Shown in pieces: positions 17,354 through 62,954 of a DNA stretch of 64,000 nucleotides. The stretch comes from Pseudobdellovibrionaceae bacterium. Its GTDB lineage: Bacteria > Bdellovibrionota > Bdellovibrionia > Bdellovibrionales > Bdellovibrionaceae. The notes under the pieces are model-generated. The model saw nothing but the letters and a program-made list of their open reading frames with translations, did not search any database and had not been told where the DNA came from. The position numbers and the translations under genes were made by a program. How positions within the stretch are numbered: position 1 is the stretch's first letter; each line of letters starts with the position of its first letter. The stretch covers positions 2,574,565 through 2,638,564 of the forward strand of contig JAHBUV010000001.1 in NCBI GenBank assembly GCA_019637915.1, read 5' to 3'.

Positions 17354-17429
17354 GGGGGCATAGCTCAGTTGGAAGAGCGCCAGCTTTGCAAGCTGGATGT
17401 CGCAGGTTCGATCCCTGTTGCCTCCACCA
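17354..17429 (+). tRNA. tRNA-Ala (TGC)
   Basis: 76 nt including an encoded CCA end. Acceptor stem GGGGGCA pairs with TGCCTCC with one G-T pair; anticodon loop TTTGCAA gives anticodon TGC (alanine); T-loop GGTTCGATCC is standard. It lies about 270 bases upstream of the 16S gene rather than in the 16S-23S spacer. Confidence 0.97.
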
Positions 17430-17517
17430 GTTGCGGATTCAAATCCAAAATTGTGAGTGACGACGGTTTTTTTGGAAAGTTTCGTTGAAAAAAAAGACGA
17501 AAAAATCAAAAAAAGCT

Positions 17518-17546
17518 GTTGACGAGGAAAAACGGTTCGAATAGAA
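17518..17546 (+). promoter_or_regulatory. rRNA operon promoter with UP-like A tracts
   Basis: TTGACG (17518 to 17523), 17-base spacer, TAGAAC (17541 to 17546). The 40 bases upstream are dominated by A runs (GAAAAAAAA, GAAAAAATCAAAAAAAG), as expected for an UP element. Transcription would start about 150 bases before mature 16S. Confidence 0.75.
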
Positions 17547-17568
17547 CTGTGCCTCTCGAAAGCGAGAC

Positions 17569-17580
17569 CGCTCTTTGAAA
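17569..17580 (+). promoter_or_regulatory. boxA antitermination element, 16S leader
   Basis: GCTCTTTGAAAA resembles the NusB/S10 boxA consensus TGCTCTTTAACA and is repeated before 23S in the form TTCTTTGACAA. Confidence 0.7.
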
Positions 17581-17586
17581 ACTGAA

Positions 17587-19325
<1,739 letters not shown>

Positions 19326-19354
19326 TTTAGTTTTGAAAGAGTGAAGCGCCACAC

Positions 19355-19431
<77 letters not shown>

Positions 19432-54501: not shown

Positions 54502-54598
54502 CGATGACGAAATGATTCGCTCATTCAAAAAATTGCCGCCGTCTGGTTCTACTTGTGAATTCAGGCACTTGAAGACGACTGCCATTGGATGAACCCAC

Positions 54599-54614
54599 TG
54601 GCCCATCTGTTGAA
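54599..54614 (+). promoter_or_regulatory. Sigma54 promoter P1
   Basis: TGGCCC-N5-TTGAA (-24 GG and -12 TTG with correct spacing). Shares CTGTTGA around -12 with P3 at 61780. Confidence 0.62.
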
Positions 54615-54677
54615 ATACACCCACCTCGAAAGTCGCTGATATGCAGTGACTCAAATAAAAAACCAATGAGGTGTGAA

Positions 54678-55726
54678 ATGAAAAAAGCGATTGTTACGTT
54701 CTTAATGTTCTTGTGCGTGAGCTTGGTGGCCTGTTCTGAAAAATCCAACGGGCAACCTAGGTTTGCGGGAAATGGAAGTCCTTCTTCATCTCCAAACAGT
54801 TTGCCAGAAGATGTGCCGGAAAATTTTGACTACAGCAAGTTGATGCACTCCGAACAAGGTACTTGCGGCGTGAAAGGTGGCGTCTATTTCAAGTATCTAC
54901 TGATAGAGGATATCATCGTCGGAAAATCGGAACGAGGAAAAGACGTCCTGGCCGAAGTACGTGTTGCTCTTTCCCCTGATCGCAAATTCGTTGCACACTA
55001 TGAGGAAAAAGAAGTCGAAGAGTACACGGCGACGGGCTACACCCACAAGCGCGATAAGAGCCGCTTCATTTCGGGCTACTGGTTTTTAGATGACCAGACA
55101 ATGGTTATCGGTGATCTCTTAAGGGTCAAAGCGAAAATGGTCGATAATCGCGTTAAAGCATCGGCTGTTTTCTTCGCGATGTTATCACTTCCCATGTAAA
55201 CGGCATGACGGCAAATGGCGTGATGGTTTGGTCCACTTCGCCCGGAACTAAATCGTACCGCGAAGTCTGCCCCACAGTGGAAAGCCAGCTTGGAAACTTC
55301 GCTGGGTTTGCCTCACAGATTGACTCGGAAAGTATTAAGATGAGTTCGCTTCAGTTGGTTCAGGGCCAGCAATTCAAAACGGGCTCTTTCTATGTCAATG
55401 ATATGCAGCTTTTTCTGCATAAAGGAGGTTCGTTCCATCTCCTTTTGAGCGGTGTTGATATGAATGATCCCACTCGCACGCTCAAGCATTACGTCGTCGA
55501 AGAAAGTTATTGGGAGCGCATTACCTCGAACAAGCTGACCTTCTACATTGGTTCCCTGCTGAAGAAGACCGACGGCGGAGCAAGGCTTTGTCTGACGAAG
55601 GATCTTTACTACATCACTCCAATGAATGAGGTGATCGACTTTCCAATCGAGGAAGAAAAATGCGTAGACCTTGAGTTTCGCGCAAGCAATTACTCGCTCG
55701 ATGATCTGACCGGAAACTATCGCTAA
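54678..55726 (+). pseudogene. Putative lipoprotein gene split by a frameshift
   Basis: Two ORFs, 54678 to 55199 (173 residues, lipobox LVAC, Cys19) and 55205 to 55726 (173 residues), look like one 350-residue protein. Adding one T to the TTTT run at 55168 to 55171 joins them smoothly: ...RVKASAVFL then RDVITSHVNGMTANGVMVW. The second part has no signal and no good ribosome site. Either a homopolymer sequencing error or a real one-base deletion. No domain recognised. Controlled by sigma54 promoter P1. Confidence 0.7.
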
Positions 55727-55772: not shown

Positions 55773-55960
55773 CTGTTAAATTCCCATCACAATCTGCCCC
55801 TCTTCAGTGGCAAGAAGCTGGTGTCAAAACGCTCTCTAAGCCTTATTCATGTGTGAAAAAAATATATGCTTTTTCGAGATATTTGCAGACGCTCCAATTT
55901 TTTGGAGCTGGCAACTTTCCTCGTAGTTACCAATAGTTGAGGCGCATTCCAGTTCGTCTG

Positions 55961-55976
55961 CTACAGGAATCTGTAG
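55961..55976 (+). promoter_or_regulatory. Distal enhancer dyad, P2
   Basis: CTACAG-GAAT-CTGTAG, perfect dyad, flanked by G and C to give GCTACAG/CTGTAGC. Confidence 0.7.
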
Positions 55977-56058
55977 CTCGCTATTTTTCATCCACACACA
56001 GCTAAATGCTATAATTTTCAACACCTTGCAATCAACTGTTTGTATTTATCAAAACTGG

Positions 56059-56074
56059 CTACGGATCTCCGTAG
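56059..56074 (+). promoter_or_regulatory. Proximal enhancer dyad, P2
   Basis: CTACGG-ATCT-CCGTAG, perfect dyad, also flanked by G and C; ends 93 bases before the -24 element. Confidence 0.7.
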
Positions 56075-56166
56075 CGGAAGGCTTTGCAATTTCAGGAAGA
56101 TTTGCCTTAACCGTTTTAAACGGCATCCAGCGCTAAATAGAAGTTATATGGATCAGTAAACAGAAT

Positions 56167-56182
56167 TGGCTTCATACTTGCT
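56167..56182 (+). promoter_or_regulatory. Sigma54 promoter P2
   Basis: TGGCTT-N5-TTGCT, perfect -24 GG and -12 GC spacing, 40 bases before the regulator ATG. Confidence 0.78.
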
Positions 56183-56221: not shown

Positions 56222-57673
56222 ATGAAGCAAACCATTCTTGCCATTGATAACGATCATCTAGTTTTGACGTCCATCAAGATGCTGTTCGCTGACGCCGACA
56301 TCGAAGTTGAAACAGCCAGCTCAGGAGAACTAGGAATCGCTTTGTTTCGTGAGCAGCCGAACCGATTCTCAGTTGTGCTTCTCGATTTTGAAATGAAAAC
56401 TAAAGAAGGTCATGGAATGGATGGCGATGAGGTCGCCGTTGCGCTGAAGGCGATACAATCGGAGGTAAGGATTGTCATGGTCTCCGGCGTGGAAGACCAG
56501 GAAATCATCGACAAGTGCCTTAAGGCCGGCGCGGAAAAATTCCTTCGTAAAGGAAAAGATCCTTCGCCGCTCATTTCCCTCATAACTTCGATGCTGCCGA
56601 AGGGAGCCGAAGACGGCAAAGAGCGAAGCGACATCGAGCGAGAGCAAAAGATTCGCCACGTTTTGAAAATGGTTGGTCGATCCCGTGAGTTCTGTGAAGT
56701 CGCAGATTTTGTTGAGAAGATTGCTCCGTTTGACGAACCCGCTTTGATTCTTGGTGAGTCCGGTGTCGGAAAAGAAGGAATTGCAGGCGCTGTTCATGAA
56801 AATTCGCGTCGAAAAGGAAAACCATTCGTTGCGATCAACTGCGCGGCCTTCAGCAAGGAACTTCTTGAAAGCGAACTCTTCGGTCACGAGCGCGGAGCAT
56901 TTACCGGAGCTTTGAATAAGAAGATTGGTCTTTTTGAAGCTGCCGATGGAGGCACGATATTTCTGGATGAGATTGGCGATATGCCACTCGATTTGCAGGC
57001 AAAAATTTTACGGGCATTGCAGGAGAAGAAGATTCAGCCAGTCGGGGCATTGGCTCCGCGCAAGGTCGATTTCCGTGTCGTCGCGGCTACTCACAGGAAT
57101 TTGCGTGAGGCCGCGGAAAAAGGAACCTTTCGTCAAGACCTCTACTATAGATTGAAGTACCTCACTATTGAAGTCGTTCCGCTAAGAGAGCGTCCCGAGG
57201 ACATTGAGCCACTGGTTTTCCATTTCATCAATGAAATGGAAAAGAAACATGGGACCAGGAAGACCATTACCCATGGGGCTTTGAGAAAGCTAAAAAGCCA
57301 TTGTTGGACCGGGAATGTTCGTGAGCTTGAGGCTGTCGTGAAAAAAGCTTTCGTCATGTCCGATGGCCGGATCACGCCACAGGCGTTTATGGATGAAATT
57401 GCAGAAATTAGGAGCAACAACATTGAAGCAGTTCTCGCAAGTGGCGAAATCATAAAATACGACGAGTTCAGGAAAAGAGTTGAGGAGCAAGAACGAACGC
57501 TCCTTAAGCGTGCGATGGAACTTGCGAAAAACGTCAAGAGCGATGCAGCGGCGCTTTTGGGAATGAACCACAACACCATGAACTACCGCAGATCAGTATT
57601 GAAGATAGAAGAAGGAAAGACCCTCACGGGAAAAGCGGCTTCGCAAAGCAACTCTTTCCGCGAGTTAAAGTAA
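56222..57673 (+). CDS. NtrC-type sigma54 response regulator
   Basis: 483 residues. Receiver domain (about 1 to 125) with phosphorylation site Asp55, AAA+ domain with Walker A GESGVGKE (178 to 185), the sigma54-contacting GAFTGA loop (225 to 230) and Walker [10 protein letters not shown], then a C-terminal helix-turn-helix ([15 protein letters not shown]). CAGGAG precedes the ATG. Activates sigma54 promoters after phosphorylation, presumably by the kinase at 60268. It has a sigma54 promoter itself, so autoactivation is likely. Confidence 0.95.
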
Positions 57674-57696: not shown

Positions 57697-57981
57697 ATGA
57701 AGATAAAGAACTTAATGGCGATGGCATTAGCCCTTGCTCTTTCCAAAACCGCTTTTGCCGAAGGCTCGGAATCGAAGTCCGTTCAGCACGGCGAATACTA
57801 TGCCTTTTCGCGTGAACTGGCCGAGAAGCTTTCACTCGACTACGACACTGTAATTCGGGTCGTCAAGCCGACGCCCGGTGAAAATATCGTTGTGAAAGTC
57901 GATGAGTTAGATCAGGTCGATATTTCGATTTTTGATAACACGCAGTTCGCCACGGCGAGAATGGATTTTGTTCGTCAATGA
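57697..57981 (+). CDS. Small exported protein, candidate peptide precursor
   Basis: 94 residues with a signal peptide (about 1 to 21, LALSKTAFAEG) and a mature part of about 72 residues rich in Asp, Val and Lys, without cysteine. AAGGGAG precedes the ATG. It overlaps the HExxH enzyme gene by four bases. In this position it could be the substrate of that enzyme or a partner of the binding protein; no sequence motif proves either. Confidence 0.8.
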   Translation: MKIKNLMAMALALALSKTAFAEGSESKSVQHGEYYAFSRELAEKLSLDYDTVIRVVKPTPGENIVVKVDELDQVDISIFDNTQFATARMDFVRQ

Positions 57982-58811
57982 GTTTGAAAGACAAATCTCT
58001 CATTCTTATCGAGCATGGCGAATGGATCTTTGATCTCATGGGCCCTCTTTTCCAAGAGGGCCTAATTAACAGACTTGGAGCATCGGCCAGAGACCTTCGG
58101 CTTCCGATGATGGAGCTTTCGCTTCACGCCTATGGGGTATCAAAGATGGAGCCTCATCCTTTGAAGCGGACAGGCCGTTTTCTCGGAGAGGCAATCTTCC
58201 AGGAAAGGGACTCAGAGACGCTTCAACGGCTAGCTGCTGGAGTCTATGCGAAAGCACGGCCTATCCCATTTTCTCAAGAACGCAAGTCGGTTATCGCGAT
58301 GGCAGAGAGATTTATCGCTAGCAAGTCAGTGGCAACCGGAGAGCTCGTTGAAAGGTGGATTTCAACATATCTTCTTTTAGGAGACGTTCATTTCCGCTCG
58401 GGTTCGAGCCCCCACGCGTTTGGGTGTATATTTCTAGGCGAAAAAATGGACAGCTTGGCATTTGAAAACCTAGCAGTCTCGATTGTTCACGAGATGGCTC
58501 ACCAAGAACTTTTCCTTTTCAATTTGATTGATCGTTTGGTGAACGCCGAGGCGGACTTCAATCTGGTCCATGCGCCATTTCAGGGAATCAAACGGCCTCC
58601 TATTGGACGGCTTCACTCGCTCTACGCCCTTTTCCGTATGGTTGAATTTGAAAAGCTGGCGGATCTTCCGCATGAGAGACATCAGCAGCTTTTGCTGGAC
58701 ACCATTCATTCATTTGAAGAGTTTGAACTCACGGATTTTGCAAAGCGGCTTCTGCGCTCTATTGAGCGAGGTCTGTCTTTGGACAAGGTCGTCAGGAGGG
58801 CTTATGCTTAG
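57978..58811 (+). CDS. HExxH-motif putative peptide-modifying enzyme
   Basis: 277 residues, cytoplasmic. HEMAH at 171 to 175 is followed by HAPFQGIKRPPIGRLHSLYALF broken at 198 to 219 with His213; this order (HExxH, a (S/A)P(W/F) and R-P-GxLH block, then an aromatic stretch) resembles the HExxH-domain proteins linked to ribosomal peptide modification, some of which are reported as 2-oxoglutarate-dependent beta-hydroxylases. Overlaps both neighbours (4 and 8 bases), so it is co-translated with the small protein and the binding protein. It could also be a metalloprotease. Confidence 0.75.
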   Translation: MSLKDKSLILIEHGEWIFDLMGPLFQEGLINRLGASARDLRLPMMELSLHAYGVSKMEPHPLKRTGRFLGEAIFQERDSETLQRLAAGVYAKARPIPFSQERKSVIAMAERFIASKSVATGELVERWISTYLLLGDVHFRSGSSPHAFGCIFLGEKMDSLAFENLAVSIVHEMAHQELFLFNLIDRLVNAEADFNLVHAPFQGIKRPPIGRLHSLYALFRMVEFEKLADLPHERHQQLLLDTIHSFEEFELTDFAKRLLRSIERGLSLDKVVRRAYA

Positions 58812-60255
58812 AATAAAGATTTTAATTTTCGCGCTAGGAGCCTTTATGAACCTACAAGATGCAAGCGCAGCCGTGCCGAAGCTCGGCTATGTACCGGGGT
58901 CTTTTCCGCGTGACGTAGTAAAAATCAATCAGTTCGCCGAGCACGTTCTTTTGGGGCAGATCCTTGAACCTTTAGTTGACGCGGATCGCTTTGGAAATAT
59001 GACCCGAGGGATCGCCGATCAATGGAAAGTTTCTCAAGACGGTAAGACCATCGTTTTCCACATTGAAAAAGGACAGACGTTCTCCAACGGCCAGCCCATT
59101 CGCGCTAGGGACGTTAAGTACAGCATCGACAGACACCTGAAAGAAGCTACGCAATCGAGCAACTTTTTGAAGTCGATCAAAGAAGTGAGGGAAACTGGAA
59201 CGCTCGAAATCACCCTGTCTCTTTCTGAAGCCAATGTCGCTATTTTGAAAGCTCTCTCGCGGGATCATTTAGGCATTGTGCCCGATGGATGGAAATTTGA
59301 TGCTGGGTCAAATGAACCTTATATTGGCTCTGGACCATATCGTCTGAAAAAAGAAGGTGGCACATGGTTCTTCCTTAAGAATGAACGGTACTCGAAGGCC
59401 AATCATATCTCTGTTCCGAAATGGGAGCTGGTTTACTTCAAAGATGATGATACTCAGAGTCTCGCGCCTGAGATTCCAGACTACGTTCCAATGGCAAGTC
59501 AGGCAGTTTTTGAAGAGCTGACGAAACTCTCTAAAGAGAAAAGCATCTCTCTTCAATCAAAGGAACAGACGAGTTTTGTACAGACTTCGCTGTGGTGGTA
59601 TCCGAATGGAGCCAACTACACATCCGAAGACAAGAAAAATCGTATCATGTCATTCCTCAATGAACTCGTTGAGGAGAAGGCGAAAGCTCATAAGTTGCAG
59701 TGAGCAACAGGTATCGTGCCTGTAGGGATTTCGGGCTATCTTCCCGAATCCGTGAGGTCCGAAAGGCCAAGTGGCAAAATTGAAAAGAAAATCCCAGTTT
59801 CTGTGGCAGTCATGGGTGCCTTCGATTTTATCTTCGATGGAGAAGACGTAAAAAAGCTTGCAGACACCTATGGCATTGAACTGAGTCACTTCAATTTTAC
59901 TCCTCTGGAACTTGCGTCGATTAAAGCAAAAAAACCTGATGTCGTGATGGCTGGCTGGGCTGGGGGCTTCAATGATCCCGAGGGATTCCTGCCTCTGCTG
60001 AATCAACTCCTTGGGGTCGATTTTGTGGATTATCTCGGTGATCTACGTTCAATTTATCTGCAAGCCCGAATAGAACAAGATTGGTCAAAGCGTAGCGATT
60101 TGTTCCGTTCCTTTAACAAGAAGATCGTCGAACAAAAAAGGATGGTCCCAGGTTGGAAAGTTCCCATGTACGCCGTCTCGCGTTCCGGTCTTACCGAGGA
60201 GAATATCGGTTTCCGTTATACTCCACGCTTAATTAACGTGAAGTACACCAAGTAA
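58804..60255 (+). pseudogene. Family-5 peptide-binding protein interrupted by in-frame TGA
   Basis: Signal peptide (about 1 to 22), then a family-5 solute-binding protein (OppA/DppA type): ILEPLVDADRFG, IADQWKVSQDGKTIVFHIEKGQTFSNGQPIRARDV and IGSGPYRLKK. After residue 299 a TGA (59701 to 59703) stops it; the same frame continues to 60255 (TGIVPVGISGYLPESV, then ...DFIFDGEDVKKLADTYGI) with the expected C-terminal half. Whole length 483 residues with readthrough. No transporter genes accompany it, so a sensing role is likelier than uptake. AGGAGGG precedes the ATG. Confidence 0.85.
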
Positions 60256-60267
60256 GGACAGGCTCCG

Positions 60268-61608
60268 GTGAACGCAATTCCCAAGAAGATCAGGTTCGGC
60301 CAGTTTTTCGGAATCGTTGTATTCCTCGTGGTCATCATTTTCTCGGGGCTGGCCACGGGCATCCAGATATATCGCGACTTCATGGAAGCCAAAGTCGCTC
60401 GTGAGGATTCTCAGGCTATTGTTTCTAAGCTTGCCGTGCAATCCCTTCGCGCTCCTCTGGTTCAAGGAAGCTTTATTGAAGCAAAAATGCGTGCCAGGAG
60501 CATTCAAGAAAGCACACAGGTCGCGTGCGTTGAAATCAGCGCCAAAGATGTGCCTGTCGCTGAGTGCGAGTTGGCGGCAGATAAAAAACAAAACCTTTAT
60601 GCCGTAACTGATGGCGTTTTCTACGATGAATTTCAAAAAGAAGAGGCCGCGAAAGTTACTCTCTACTTCGACAATTCCGACATTTACACATCTCTAAAAC
60701 AGAAGATCAGATTCGCTGCGGTCAGCAATTCGGCGCTTGCATTGTTTGTGCTTGGAATTTTGCTCTTTGCGAGCCGAATTATTAAGCGAGATCTAAATAC
60801 GATCATCGAAGAATGCGAAGGGAAAGCGCCAGAGGGCGCACCGATCTGGCTTGCTGAGTTCTCCTATCTCAAAAAGAAAATCAAAATGCACATGGATGCA
60901 GCTGAGGTTAATGCTGAAACCCGTGCATCTGGTGAATTGGCCCGACAAGTAAAACATGACATTCGGTCGCCTCTGGCAGCCCTTAACAACACTATCAAGT
61001 CTATGGCTCTACCAGCAGATAAGAAGTCCGTCATTCAGAGTGCAATCAGCCGGATCAATGACATTGCCGACGACCTTAATCGAACCAAAGTGAATTCAAT
61101 CACAGCTAGGTCGGAAAATTCCATTCAATCTCGACAAAGCCTTGGCGAAATATTGGCGTCAGTGATCGACGAAAAACGAATCCAGTACAAGGATTTGCCT
61201 GAAATTGCTTTTGAACTACACCTGGATTCAGAACCAGACGGCAGCGTTGCGATGGATTCCAAGGAACTAAAACGAATTCTGTCGAATGTTCTCAATAATT
61301 CTGTAGAAGCCATAGAAGACACAGGTCTTATCAAAGTTGACCTCGGCCGCAATCAAGATTTCGCGCGGATTTTTGTGGTCGATACCGGAAAAGGAATTCC
61401 CCCTGAAGTGATTCCATCTCTTGGTGGCAAGGGAAAGACGTTTGGTAAACAGCATGGAAGCGGTCTGGGGCTCTACCACGCGATTAGCACCATTGAAGGT
61501 GTTGGTGGGCGCTTCACGATTGATTCGGACGGTATAAGCGGAACCTGCGTTGAAATCCTGATTCCGCTTGCTTCCAATCAGGGCAAACCTGCTGCCGGAA
61601 TTCTGTAG
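60268..61608 (+). CDS. Membrane sensor histidine kinase
   Basis: 446 residues, GTG start with AAGGA upstream. TM1 about 12 to 33, a periplasmic domain about 35 to 148, TM2 about 149 to 170, then HisKA with phospho-acceptor His230 in VKHDIRSPLAAL, and HATPase_c with NVLNNSVEA, DTGKGIP and GSGLGLYH. It ends the operon and is expected to phosphorylate the NtrC-type regulator at 56222; the periplasmic domain could read the state of the binding protein. Confidence 0.93.
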   Translation: MNAIPKKIRFGQFFGIVVFLVVIIFSGLATGIQIYRDFMEAKVAREDSQAIVSKLAVQSLRAPLVQGSFIEAKMRARSIQESTQVACVEISAKDVPVAECELAADKKQNLYAVTDGVFYDEFQKEEAAKVTLYFDNSDIYTSLKQKIRFAAVSNSALALFVLGILLFASRIIKRDLNTIIEECEGKAPEGAPIWLAEFSYLKKKIKMHMDAAEVNAETRASGELARQVKHDIRSPLAALNNTIKSMALPADKKSVIQSAISRINDIADDLNRTKVNSITARSENSIQSRQSLGEILASVIDEKRIQYKDLPEIAFELHLDSEPDGSVAMDSKELKRILSNVLNNSVEAIEDTGLIKVDLGRNQDFARIFVVDTGKGIPPEVIPSLGGKGKTFGKQHGSGLGLYHAISTIEGVGGRFTIDSDGISGTCVEILIPLASNQGKPAAGIL

Positions 61609-61611
61609 CTC

Positions 61612-61627
61612 CTCTAAAAATTTGCAG
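61612..61627 (+). promoter_or_regulatory. Distal enhancer dyad, P3
   Basis: CTCTAA-AAAT-TTGCAG; 57 bases from the start of the proximal dyad. A second CTGTAGC half-site lies just upstream (61603 to 61609) and overlaps the kinase stop codon. Confidence 0.52.
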
Positions 61628-61668
61628 TCATGTATTATCTTGGGTTTTCGATATCTTATCGAGATCAC

Positions 61669-61684
61669 CTGCAATGAATTGCAG
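61669..61684 (+). promoter_or_regulatory. Proximal enhancer dyad, P3
   Basis: CTGCAA-TGAA-TTGCAG, perfect dyad (CTGCAAT-GA-ATTGCAG); ends 96 bases before the -24 element. Confidence 0.68.
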
Positions 61685-61779
61685 AAACCCTTCCGGTAAC
61701 TGGACGAGTGCGATTCGCTCGATCATAAAAATTCATTTTATCTCAACTACTTACAACAAGGTAGTCTGCATCCGTGATT

Positions 61780-61795
61780 CGGCACGCCTGTTGAT
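61780..61795 (+). promoter_or_regulatory. Sigma54 promoter P3
   Basis: CGGCACG-N4-TTGAT, close to the sigma54 consensus, 45 bases before the first small gene. Confidence 0.72.
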
Positions 61796-61840
61796 ATGGA
61801 TACTTTTGAAGGCTGATGAATAGCCTCGAAAGGAATCTAT

Positions 61841-62044
61841 ATGAAGAACATAAAGCAAATTCGAGAGACAATCCCTCGCAATGTGAAAGTAGCGGCATCA
61901 ATGCTGTGGCGAGCTTTGGTGGGCGGTCTACGGATGGTTTGTACCATCCTTTTTGTTCCTCCGCCGCAACAACAGCAAATCGAAGAGGAACGGATTCGTG
62001 TCCCTGAGCTCGCAAGGCATTCCCGAAAAATAGGAGGGGGATAA
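61841..62044 (+). CDS. Small membrane-associated protein, first gene after P3
   Basis: 67 residues, AAAGGA upstream. A single hydrophobic helix (about 21 to 40) preceded by a basic amphipathic segment and followed by a Gln/Pro/Glu-rich tail. Inner-membrane location likely. It is the first gene behind a sigma54 promoter and runs two bases before the next gene. No homology recognised. Confidence 0.68.
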   Translation: MKNIKQIRETIPRNVKVAASMLWRALVGGLRMVCTILFVPPPQQQQIEEERIRVPELARHSRKIGGG

Positions 62045-62045
62045 A

Positions 62046-62240
62046 ATGGAAAACAAGAAAATCGTAAATGCAATCCCTGACGGGATGCATACGAAGAAGA
62101 AACGCCTCTCTGATGCGCTCAATGTGCTGTCAGAGATGTTTGGAATCGAGTTTGGGAGCGTCACCATCAAATTCCACAATGGAAAATGGAGCCCGAAAAT
62201 CGAAATCGAAAAACGAATGGTAGAAGAGATCAAAGACTAG
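62046..62240 (+). CDS. Small soluble protein
   Basis: 64 residues with the strongest ribosome site in the neighbourhood (AGGAGGGGG, five bases upstream). Basic N-terminus, then an amphipathic helix and two strands (VTIKFHNGKW). Cytoplasmic. Unknown function; co-transcribed with the previous gene. Confidence 0.75.
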   Translation: MENKKIVNAIPDGMHTKKKRLSDALNVLSEMFGIEFGSVTIKFHNGKWSPKIEIEKRMVEEIKD

Positions 62241-62269
62241 AGAAAGTGCCCACCCTATAAAGGGCGGCT

Positions 62270-62353
62270 ATGAGCAGCCAAGGTATCGCCTACCATAACA
62301 ACGGCGGCGGAACCGTGAAGTTAGCCTCAACCAAATCAGAAAAAGGACTCTGA
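62270..62353 (+). CDS. Possible 27-codon peptide
   Basis: ATG 62270 with AAGGG upstream; product starts MSSQGIAYHNNGGGTVKLAS. Short, Gly/Asn/Lys-rich. It sits between the small soluble protein and the sigma-like gene. Ribosome site and position support it, nothing else. Confidence 0.3.
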   Translation: MSSQGIAYHNNGGGTVKLASTKSEKGL

Positions 62354-62381
62354 TCGGCTGAACTTCAGAAAGGAATCCAAA

Positions 62382-62954
62382 ATGGATTCGAGTCAAATGC
62401 CCGCTCAGGCTATTGAGCAAATGTTAGTCGTTCAAACCCAGGCTCCGTGGCTTCTGGAAAACGGAAAAATCACTCCTGAGCATTATCTGAGAGCGCTCAC
62501 TCCATACTGGGATTCTGAAACCTGGGAGAAATATCTCACATGGTTTGAGAATCAAACCGGACAGCGAGCCGAATCGCTTGTTCCTCCGCGAAGGTACACG
62601 GAGATTTGTGAATCCCAAGAAGAATCTATTTTCTCATTTGCACAAAGCAATGCCGAAGAAGATCTGCGTGTCTTGGTCGGTGAATACCTTCACACCCTCA
62701 CGGATCTTCAACGTCGTGTAGTCGAGATGATCTTTTGGGATGGCCGGAGTACCCGCACTGTCGCTCTTACACTGGGAATTCGCCATCAATCTGTTCATCG
62801 GCTCAAAATACGCGCTCTCAATAAAATCAAGGGTTTGCTCAGGGAGGGTGCCACTTCCCGTATTATGAGAGGGGAAATTTCCCCAAACCAGAAAGGGGGA
62901 ACCGATGAAACAGGACTTCTACTGGCACACCGTATGTTGCCGCAAGCCAGTTAG
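62382..62954 (+). CDS. Sigma70-region-4-like DNA-binding protein A
   Basis: 190 residues, AAAGGA before the ATG. The C-terminal half contains a sigma-70 region 4-type helix-turn-helix (LTDLQRRVVEMIFWDGRSTRTVALTLGI and HQSVHRLKIRALNKI). No region 2, so not a full sigma factor. Likely a regulator of the transfer genes. Its 3' end contains the GGGGAAATTTCCCC palindrome and overlaps a micro-ORF. Confidence 0.82.
   Translation: MDSSQMPAQAIEQMLVVQTQAPWLLENGKITPEHYLRALTPYWDSETWEKYLTWFENQTGQRAESLVPPRRYTEICESQEESIFSFAQSNAEEDLRVLVGEYLHTLTDLQRRVVEMIFWDGRSTRTVALTLGIRHQSVHRLKIRALNKIKGLLREGATSRIMRGEISPNQKGGTDETGLLLAHRMLPQAS
62871..62884. repeat. 14-bp palindrome near the end of the sigma-like gene
   Basis: GGGGAAATTTCCCC. 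Its right half TTCCCC can also pair with GGGGAA (62896 to 62901) in the ribosome site of the micro-ORF. Confidence 0.75.

Follow-up and report, generated by a model that had tools for sequence, protein, structure and literature searches.

In two-component quorum sensing of the LuxPQ/agr type, a periplasmic binding protein or a surface kinase detects the autoinducer, with feedback on its own genes. Peptide oxygenases of the HExxH family have been characterised only recently. In the pfl and pos RiPP clusters of Pseudomonas, the Gln residues of LGTAAIFDQQQQIQARMD and IGVAAIFDTQQQQARMD are hydroxylated by PflC and PosC, which also cleave the precursor ahead of an ARMD motif to give an amide (Ouyang et al., PMC12636437); the ARMD motif need not be C-terminal, its Ala is the critical residue, and the function of the pfl/pos products is stated to be unknown (PMC12636437). 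Another member of the family, PesO, has also been characterised; its target for hydroxylation is the Pro of PR(V/T)DN (PMC13060819).

The window, that is, the whole stretch of 64,000 nucleotides of a Pseudobdellovibrionaceae genome analysed here, contains an enzyme of this family within a set of five codirectional genes, in which a putative signal gene, an export route, a sensor and a regulator stand together, with a matching sigma-54 promoter before the operon. The features are as follows.

55960-55977, no strand: distal palindrome GCTACAGGAATCTGTAGC, a possible enhancer at which the response regulator would bind (palindrome search)
56058-56075, no strand: proximal palindrome GCTACGGATCTCCGTAGC, candidate enhancer site (palindrome search)
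56167-56182, plus strand: sigma-54 type -24/-12 promoter TGGCTTCATACTTGCT, 55 bp ahead of the regulator gene, with which the operon starts (pattern scan)
56222-57673, plus strand: sigma-54 activating response regulator with REC, AAA and Fis-type HTH parts (Pfam PF00158 at 7.7e-68, PF00072, PF02954)
57697-57981, plus strand: small Sec-exported putative precursor protein, 94 aa (open reading frame, family alignment)
57697-57759, plus strand: stretch that encodes residues 1-21, the predicted Sec signal peptide (sequence)
57916-57978, plus strand: core VDISIFDNTQFATARMDFVRQ, residues 74-94 (conservation, paralogue comparison)
57955-57966, plus strand: ARMD motif, residues 87-90, with A87 as the predicted oxidation and cleavage residue (PflA/PosA precedent, PMC12636437)
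57978-58811, plus strand: enzyme of the aKG-HExxH peptide beta-hydroxylase family, 277 aa (TIGR04267 profile and AF2 fold)
58488-58502, plus strand: HEMAH metal-binding motif, residues 171-175 (sequence, homologue alignment)
58804-60255, plus strand: SBP_bac_5 (peptide-type) solute-binding protein (SBP), interrupted (PF00496 at 1.4e-27)
60268-61608, plus strand: sensor histidine kinase (PF02518 at 1.9e-15)
62382-62954, plus strand: sigma-70 region 4 protein, encoded after the cassette and ahead of the T4SS genes (PF04545 at 2.2e-7)

The initial annotation of this DNA had noted that the small gene overlaps the enzyme gene by four bases, as is often the case for a precursor and its modifying enzyme, while allowing that the small protein may not be the substrate. 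The overlap is there (ATGA; open reading frames 57697-57981 and 57978-58811), and the precursor idea has been borne out to the extent that the enzyme is an oxygenase by profile and fold, and that the core of the small protein matches the PflA substrate. The pair is real, but the block placed between 57697 and 58811 was drawn too narrowly, since the SBP gene in turn overlaps the enzyme gene by 8 bases (ATGCTTAG at 58804-58811), so that the coupled block is larger; the operon and the adjoining conjugation locus had been missed. A chance overlap of open reading frames was considered and rejected: the arrangement is selected, because there is a second copy in the same genome and the same order recurs in relatives.

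The enzyme scores 54.5 bits against TIGR04267 (IPR026337) in the profile search, where the curated cut-off is 40, and its paralogue from the second copy scores 59.1 bits. The AF2 model of the enzyme (pLDDT 91.4) superimposes on the HExxH domain of ChlB (8s5f) with Z 20.9 over 255 aligned residues at 3.3 A and matches SjiH with Z 19.6, while the next proteins, proteases among them, follow at Z of about 6. The HExxH motif, R206, P207, H213 and S143 are invariant in 23 diverse homologues. Because of the profile, the fold and these invariant residues, the protein is by family an oxygenase rather than a protease; the metal, the use of aKG and the products are assigned by homology. Two other identities were rejected, namely a fatty-acid isomerase, for which there was a Pfam hint at E 0.03, and a secreted zinc protease.

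The putative precursor is encoded by an open reading frame with an ATG start and a Shine-Dalgarno-like GAAGGGAG, and it contains no Cys. By-eye inspection reveals a Sec-type signal that reads MKIKNLMAMALALALSKTAFA followed by E, with cleavage expected after AFA. The initial annotation had regarded such a signal as unusual for a peptide modified in the cytoplasm; the signal is indeed present, but it is hardly an obstacle, given that bufferin precursors with Sec signals are modified by an iron enzyme (PMC12452194). The protein ends with IFDNTQFATARMDFVRQ, which matches the core IFDQQQQIQARMD of the Pseudomonas precursor PflA. The stretch IFDNTQFATARMD thereby places IFD and ARMD, spaced as in PflA, beside an HExxH enzyme, and IFD-x6-ARMD is common to the window precursor, its paralogue and PflA. 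Conservation within the small-protein family is concentrated in the last 21 residues, which contain its three invariant internal columns, and the window core VDISIFDNTQFATARMDFVRQ is identical to the second-copy core VDISIFDSHQFAQARMDFVRQ in 18 of 21 residues. At the DNA level, the strict pattern IF(D/N)-x6-ARMD is matched three times in 359 Bdellovibrionota genomes, each time within one of these precursors, whereas a relaxed core pattern, with 19 matches in the same genomes, is not specific alone because just 5 of the 19 are precursors. Related Bdellovibrionota cores carry ARAD, ARID, ARVD, SRVD or, in L038, PRVD, which makes R-x-D with one residue before it look like a shared recognition signal. 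Against this reading of the motif count the precursors of L020, L021 and L022, which have LASD, LAAD or MAMD in place of ARxD.

The small protein has no family match in Pfam or NCBIfam. No NHLP leader family was found in NCBIfam or Pfam at E <=1, although the poor structure model (AF2 pLDDT 70, pTM 0.53) leaves room for remote similarity; this model has no match in the PDB, and a likeness to the Os1348/PosA leader was thus not seen with a model of such quality. A PDB sequence search with the precursor alignment returned chance matches only. There is no MNIO (PF05114) in the whole genome and, as an NHLP leader is not recognisable either, the chemistry here can be no more than a part of that of Pfl/Pos. 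On balance, the small protein is very likely the substrate of the enzyme, and oxidative cleavage at A87 is its probable fate. The +16 Da shifts that the initial annotation expected would then be incomplete as a description, since ARMD chemistry also predicts backbone cleavage with a C-terminal amide.

Enzyme homologues without a neighbouring small exported protein had been named in advance as evidence against the pairing. Such homologues do occur, yet many of them have an unsignalled peptide of 24-29 aa with a similar core, together with an MFS carrier, and the position of these peptides, directly before or overlapping the enzyme gene, supports the pairing. These mini-precursors (L036/L124, L123, L038, L139, L141, L142 and L148) are 24-29 aa long where the start is clear, those of L139 and L142 having uncertain starts. 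An MFS-type carrier is encoded in all seven mini-precursor cassettes with a kinase, either by a gene between the enzyme and the kinase genes or as a fusion to the N-terminus of the kinase, and in none of the Sec-precursor cassettes compared; in L036 and L123 the MFS call comes from 12 predicted TM segments and, in L036, an MFS-like GRFADRFG motif, not from Pfam. The association would have p ~3e-5 (6/6 versus 0/14) if the lineages were independent, a value that overstates it because the tree shows few transitions. In the tree, the Sec-fused form branches from within the mini forms, which suggests that its lineage gained the signal and leader and lost the carrier. The Sec-fused precursor, set against a leaderless precursor of 24-29 aa with an MFS carrier, amounts to a natural experiment in RiPP export.

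The genes that accompany this pair are those of sensing. Two TM segments of the kinase (residues 14-32 and 149-167) flank about 116 aa that presumably form a periplasmic domain. Since the SBP gene was found without permease genes beside it, the SBP is more likely to be a sensor subunit than part of a transporter. In the window, an in-frame TGA interrupts the SBP gene at 59701-59703, and the frame resumes from a GTG at 59716; the gene is intact in L015, L016 and L019, and CGA stands at the TGA position in L016 and L019. The window copy of the SBP/sensor may be broken by this TGA, or the TGA may be an assembly error.

The second copy of the whole arrangement in the same genome (L015, at G000:C1:1543313) encodes an enzyme with 42% identity. 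A relative of the enzyme is found in 92 of 369 genomes across the phylum, and the order of small protein and enzyme is retained in relatives, with small proteins at 18-58% identity. In 25 cassette groups, hand-chosen around the closer enzymes so that the counts are descriptive, the SBP is present in all 25, the kinase in 23 and the regulator in 11. Longer or remoter forms of the enzyme occur without a sensing neighbourhood (L153-L155, L143, L144, L067); those of L153-L155 (G232, G186, G144 and many others) are HExxH-family proteins of 400-500 aa without an adjoining SBP or kinase, present in many genomes from a single family of the phylum. Three loci (L128, L130, L039) have the enzyme and the SBP, and no recognisable precursor was found in them. 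In Bacteriovoracaceae, an HExxH gene is preceded by the gene of a two-core precursor of 70 aa, in which VDEVFGESRVNGVIIDI occurs twice (L037 6728-6940, the same as L126 6253-6465); this locus has no SBP or kinase and has ABC transporter genes nearby. In a second type of cassette (L063, L064, L066, L068, L069, L127, L129, L131, L132), a different Sec protein of about 145-170 aa takes the place of the precursor before the SBP, probably another substrate family; those of 155-163 aa (L063, L064, L069, L127, L129, L131, L132) share a C-terminal HSF/ASF motif that is suggestive and matches no known chemistry. One Bdellovibrionota-type cassette lies in an entry titled as a Streptomyces griseus MAG (L033, CALQIT020000123.1), with a match position as in G020:C123; the label looks wrong. 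Two genes upstream of the window cassette (54585-55726) are found in the same place in L016, L017 and L019, at 63-75% identity.

The two 18-bp palindromes of the window lie about 110 and 207 bp further upstream of the -24/-12 element. In the 3.3 Mb genome, exact matches to GCTACNGNNNNCNGTAGC are confined to these two sites, and a regulon search by patterns found three one-mismatch sites elsewhere. In relatives, CTAC-N8-GTAG recurs about 110 bp before the -24 element and, in L063, L064, L127 and L129, also at about 205-215 bp. With a promoter threshold of at least 9 of 11 matches, a sigma-54 site precedes the first gene by 33-73 bp in 15 of the 16 regulator-bearing cassettes scanned, several of which are close relatives of each other, the exception being L035; overall, 21 of 33 cassettes have a site within 80 bp, where 0.0075 per 80 bp would be expected. 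In L020 and L021 the regulator gene is last, and the site is found 56 bp before the precursor gene instead; in L035, L139 and L141 the regulator is present and no sigma-54 site reaches the threshold. A promoter and palindromes arranged in this way are, as judged from the DNA, what a self-activating sigma-54 operon looks like.

Past the downstream end of the window, the same strand carries genes of the TraC/VirB4, CagX, TrbI and TraG/TraD types and a large serine recombinase, which supply the T4SS, coupling protein and recombinase expected of an integrative conjugative element, the TraC, CagX, TrbI, TraG-D_C and Resolvase/Recombinase matches all falling within 25 kb downstream of the cassette. 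The only two TrbI (T4SS) loci of the genome are 10.2 and 11.1 kb from the two cassettes, one each, and TrbI was also found within about 17 kb of a cassette in G019, G051, G047, G140, G194, G104, G089, G177, G309 and G048. The link is not universal, since in some genomes (G010, G029, G183, G186 and G313) TrbI was not seen near the cassette. A relaxase stands beside the second copy (L162), and none was identified in the element of the window copy. Relatives of the sigma-70 region 4 protein occur near some other cassettes as well. A DUF2292-like small protein, with a weak match below cut-off, is encoded between the cassette and the T4SS genes (62046-62240), and similar small proteins are found near other cassettes. 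Further upstream in the window, inspection by eye of 31000-54200 revealed a copper-type P-ATPase, RND efflux and cation efflux genes, likely the usual kind of heavy-metal cargo of a conjugative element; tRNA-Ala and tRNA-Ile lie close together at 17354-19431, as in an rRNA operon.

From the gene families, the motif, the fold, the promoter with its palindromes, the synteny and the T4SS neighbourhood, we infer the individual biochemical steps, the SBP ligand and the output of the circuit. The five genes probably form an autoinducing module of modified-peptide signalling, with control of conjugation as its likeliest output, given that the T4SS genes follow shortly after the module and run in the same direction. 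The following sequence of events can be envisaged. The precursor would be made with its Sec signal and bound in the cytoplasm by the HExxH enzyme, which would beta-hydroxylate residues in the IFDNTQFAT stretch of the core and cut the backbone at A87 of ARMD, leaving T86 as a C-terminal amide; the predicted change in precursor mass is about -1004.5 Da, plus 16 Da per hydroxylation. The processed peptide would be exported by Sec, bound in the periplasm by the SBP_bac_5 protein and presented to the two-TM sensor kinase, which would phosphorylate the sigma-54 activator; the activator would then bind the two palindromes and drive the -24/-12 promoter of its own operon more strongly, closing a positive loop through which the density of carriers would control conjugation of the element. 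These steps are not equally secure: the substrate step is likely, the signalling role of the cassette is what we would favour from the company of genes it keeps, and control of conjugation by the module, more tentative still, has somewhat less than an even chance.

The main competitor, which we consider unlikely though by no means negligible, is that the module regulates a different trait in response to a peptide and is just carried along by conjugative elements as cargo. The cassettes with no T4SS nearby fit this reading, as does the lack of matching enhancer sites ahead of the T4SS genes, where, as in 61500-62700, neither a sigma-54 promoter nor a palindrome turned up; but simple carriage sits less easily with the pairing of both genomic TrbI loci with a cassette, with the recurrence of the pairing within about 17 kb in at least 10 further genomes, and with the sigma-70 region 4 protein on the same strand between the cassette and the T4SS genes. 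That recurrent T4SS link also speaks against the possibility, rather improbable in our view, that the pair makes an antibiotic-like RiPP instead of a signal, as in a bacteriocin-type cluster, with production turned on when the SBP, kinase and regulator detect prey, stress or the peptide itself. Autoinduction by the product is known for antibiotics. Moreover, loss of the PosA gene, Os1348, lowers the antibiotic activity of Pseudomonas sp. Os17 (PMC7726476). An antibiotic cluster would, however, be an odd description of a locus with no recognised immunity gene, with one modifying enzyme alone beside a full sensing set, and with palindromes unique to the operon.

The two other alternatives question the relationship between the small protein and the enzyme. 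The small protein might be a periplasmic regulator of the kinase or SBP, comparable to CpxP for CpxA, while the enzyme acts elsewhere, for instance on the SBP or the kinase; the Sec signal, the kinase alongside, the SBP as the most constant partner of the enzyme and the few enzymes without a visible small precursor would all be accommodated. This is nevertheless quite improbable, as the C-terminus carries the same motif as substrates on which HExxH enzymes are proven to act, the invariant columns fall in the core, and the 24-29-aa versions retain little beyond that core. Least probable of all is that the HExxH protein is a metalloprotease hydrolysing the precursor near ARMD: there is a weak structural resemblance to zincins, and PflC does hydrolyse a truncated leaderless substrate, but hydrolysis was not seen on the full-length substrate (PMC12636437), and the fold and profile of the window enzyme fit aKG oxygenases far better than proteases. 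Autoinducing signalling by a modified peptide, which we continue to prefer, would make the cassette a candidate peptide-pheromone system for Gram-negative bacteria and, if true, would be a new way for them to communicate with modified peptides; it also opens the question of how conjugative elements in relatives of predatory bacteria time their transfer.

Taken individually, the enzyme family, the ARMD chemistry and the Sec-signal RiPPs are already known, whereas in the openly licensed literature no description was found of such a cassette with an SBP-kinase-sigma-54 loop on conjugative elements. It can be suggested, as a tentative proposal, that the cassettes represent a new class of Gram-negative quorum sensing, in which HExxH-oxidised, amidated peptides, exported by Sec or MFS, act via an SBP and kinase on a sigma-54 loop that controls transfer of Bdellovibrionota elements. 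The closest relatives of the biosynthetic half are the pfl/pos clusters (PflA/PflC, PosA/PosC; PMC12636437), where an enzyme of the same family adjoins a small precursor and where PflA shares with the window precursor an IFD...ARMD core with the same 6-residue spacing; the window precursor differs in having a Sec signal instead of an NHLP leader and FVRQ after ARMD, and the cluster differs in that no MNIO-nitroreductase or GNAT was seen and a two-component/SBP circuit is attached. In the pes cluster of the nitrilobacillins (PesO; PMC13060819), a short precursor is likewise modified by the HExxH enzyme at the residue that precedes R-x-D, but the cassette described here has sensing genes instead of a nitrile synthetase and MNIO. 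The bufferins, which are Sec-signal MNIO RiPPs (PMC12452194), resemble it in the modification of a Sec-signal precursor by an iron enzyme; the window precursor, unlike theirs, has no Cys, and its enzyme belongs to another family, no MNIO being involved. The sensing genes here point to a modified-peptide signal as a role for the HExxH oxygenases and, being linked to the enzyme and to a promoter, make the function of the family testable. As to this sensing half, the pheromone-responsive conjugation of the Enterococcus plasmid pCF10 (PrgZ, cCF10; PMC7117660) similarly brings together a peptide signal, an OppA-like SBP and conjugation; the cassette differs in its Gram-negative setting, in the modified peptide, and in using an SBP, a sensor kinase and a sigma-54 activator where pCF10 relies on peptide import to a cytoplasmic regulator. 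Finally, the proposed circuit shares autoinducer sensing with feedback with two-component quorum sensing of the LuxPQ/agr type; unlike there, the proposed ligand is an oxidised ribosomal peptide, and the signal genes have no homology.
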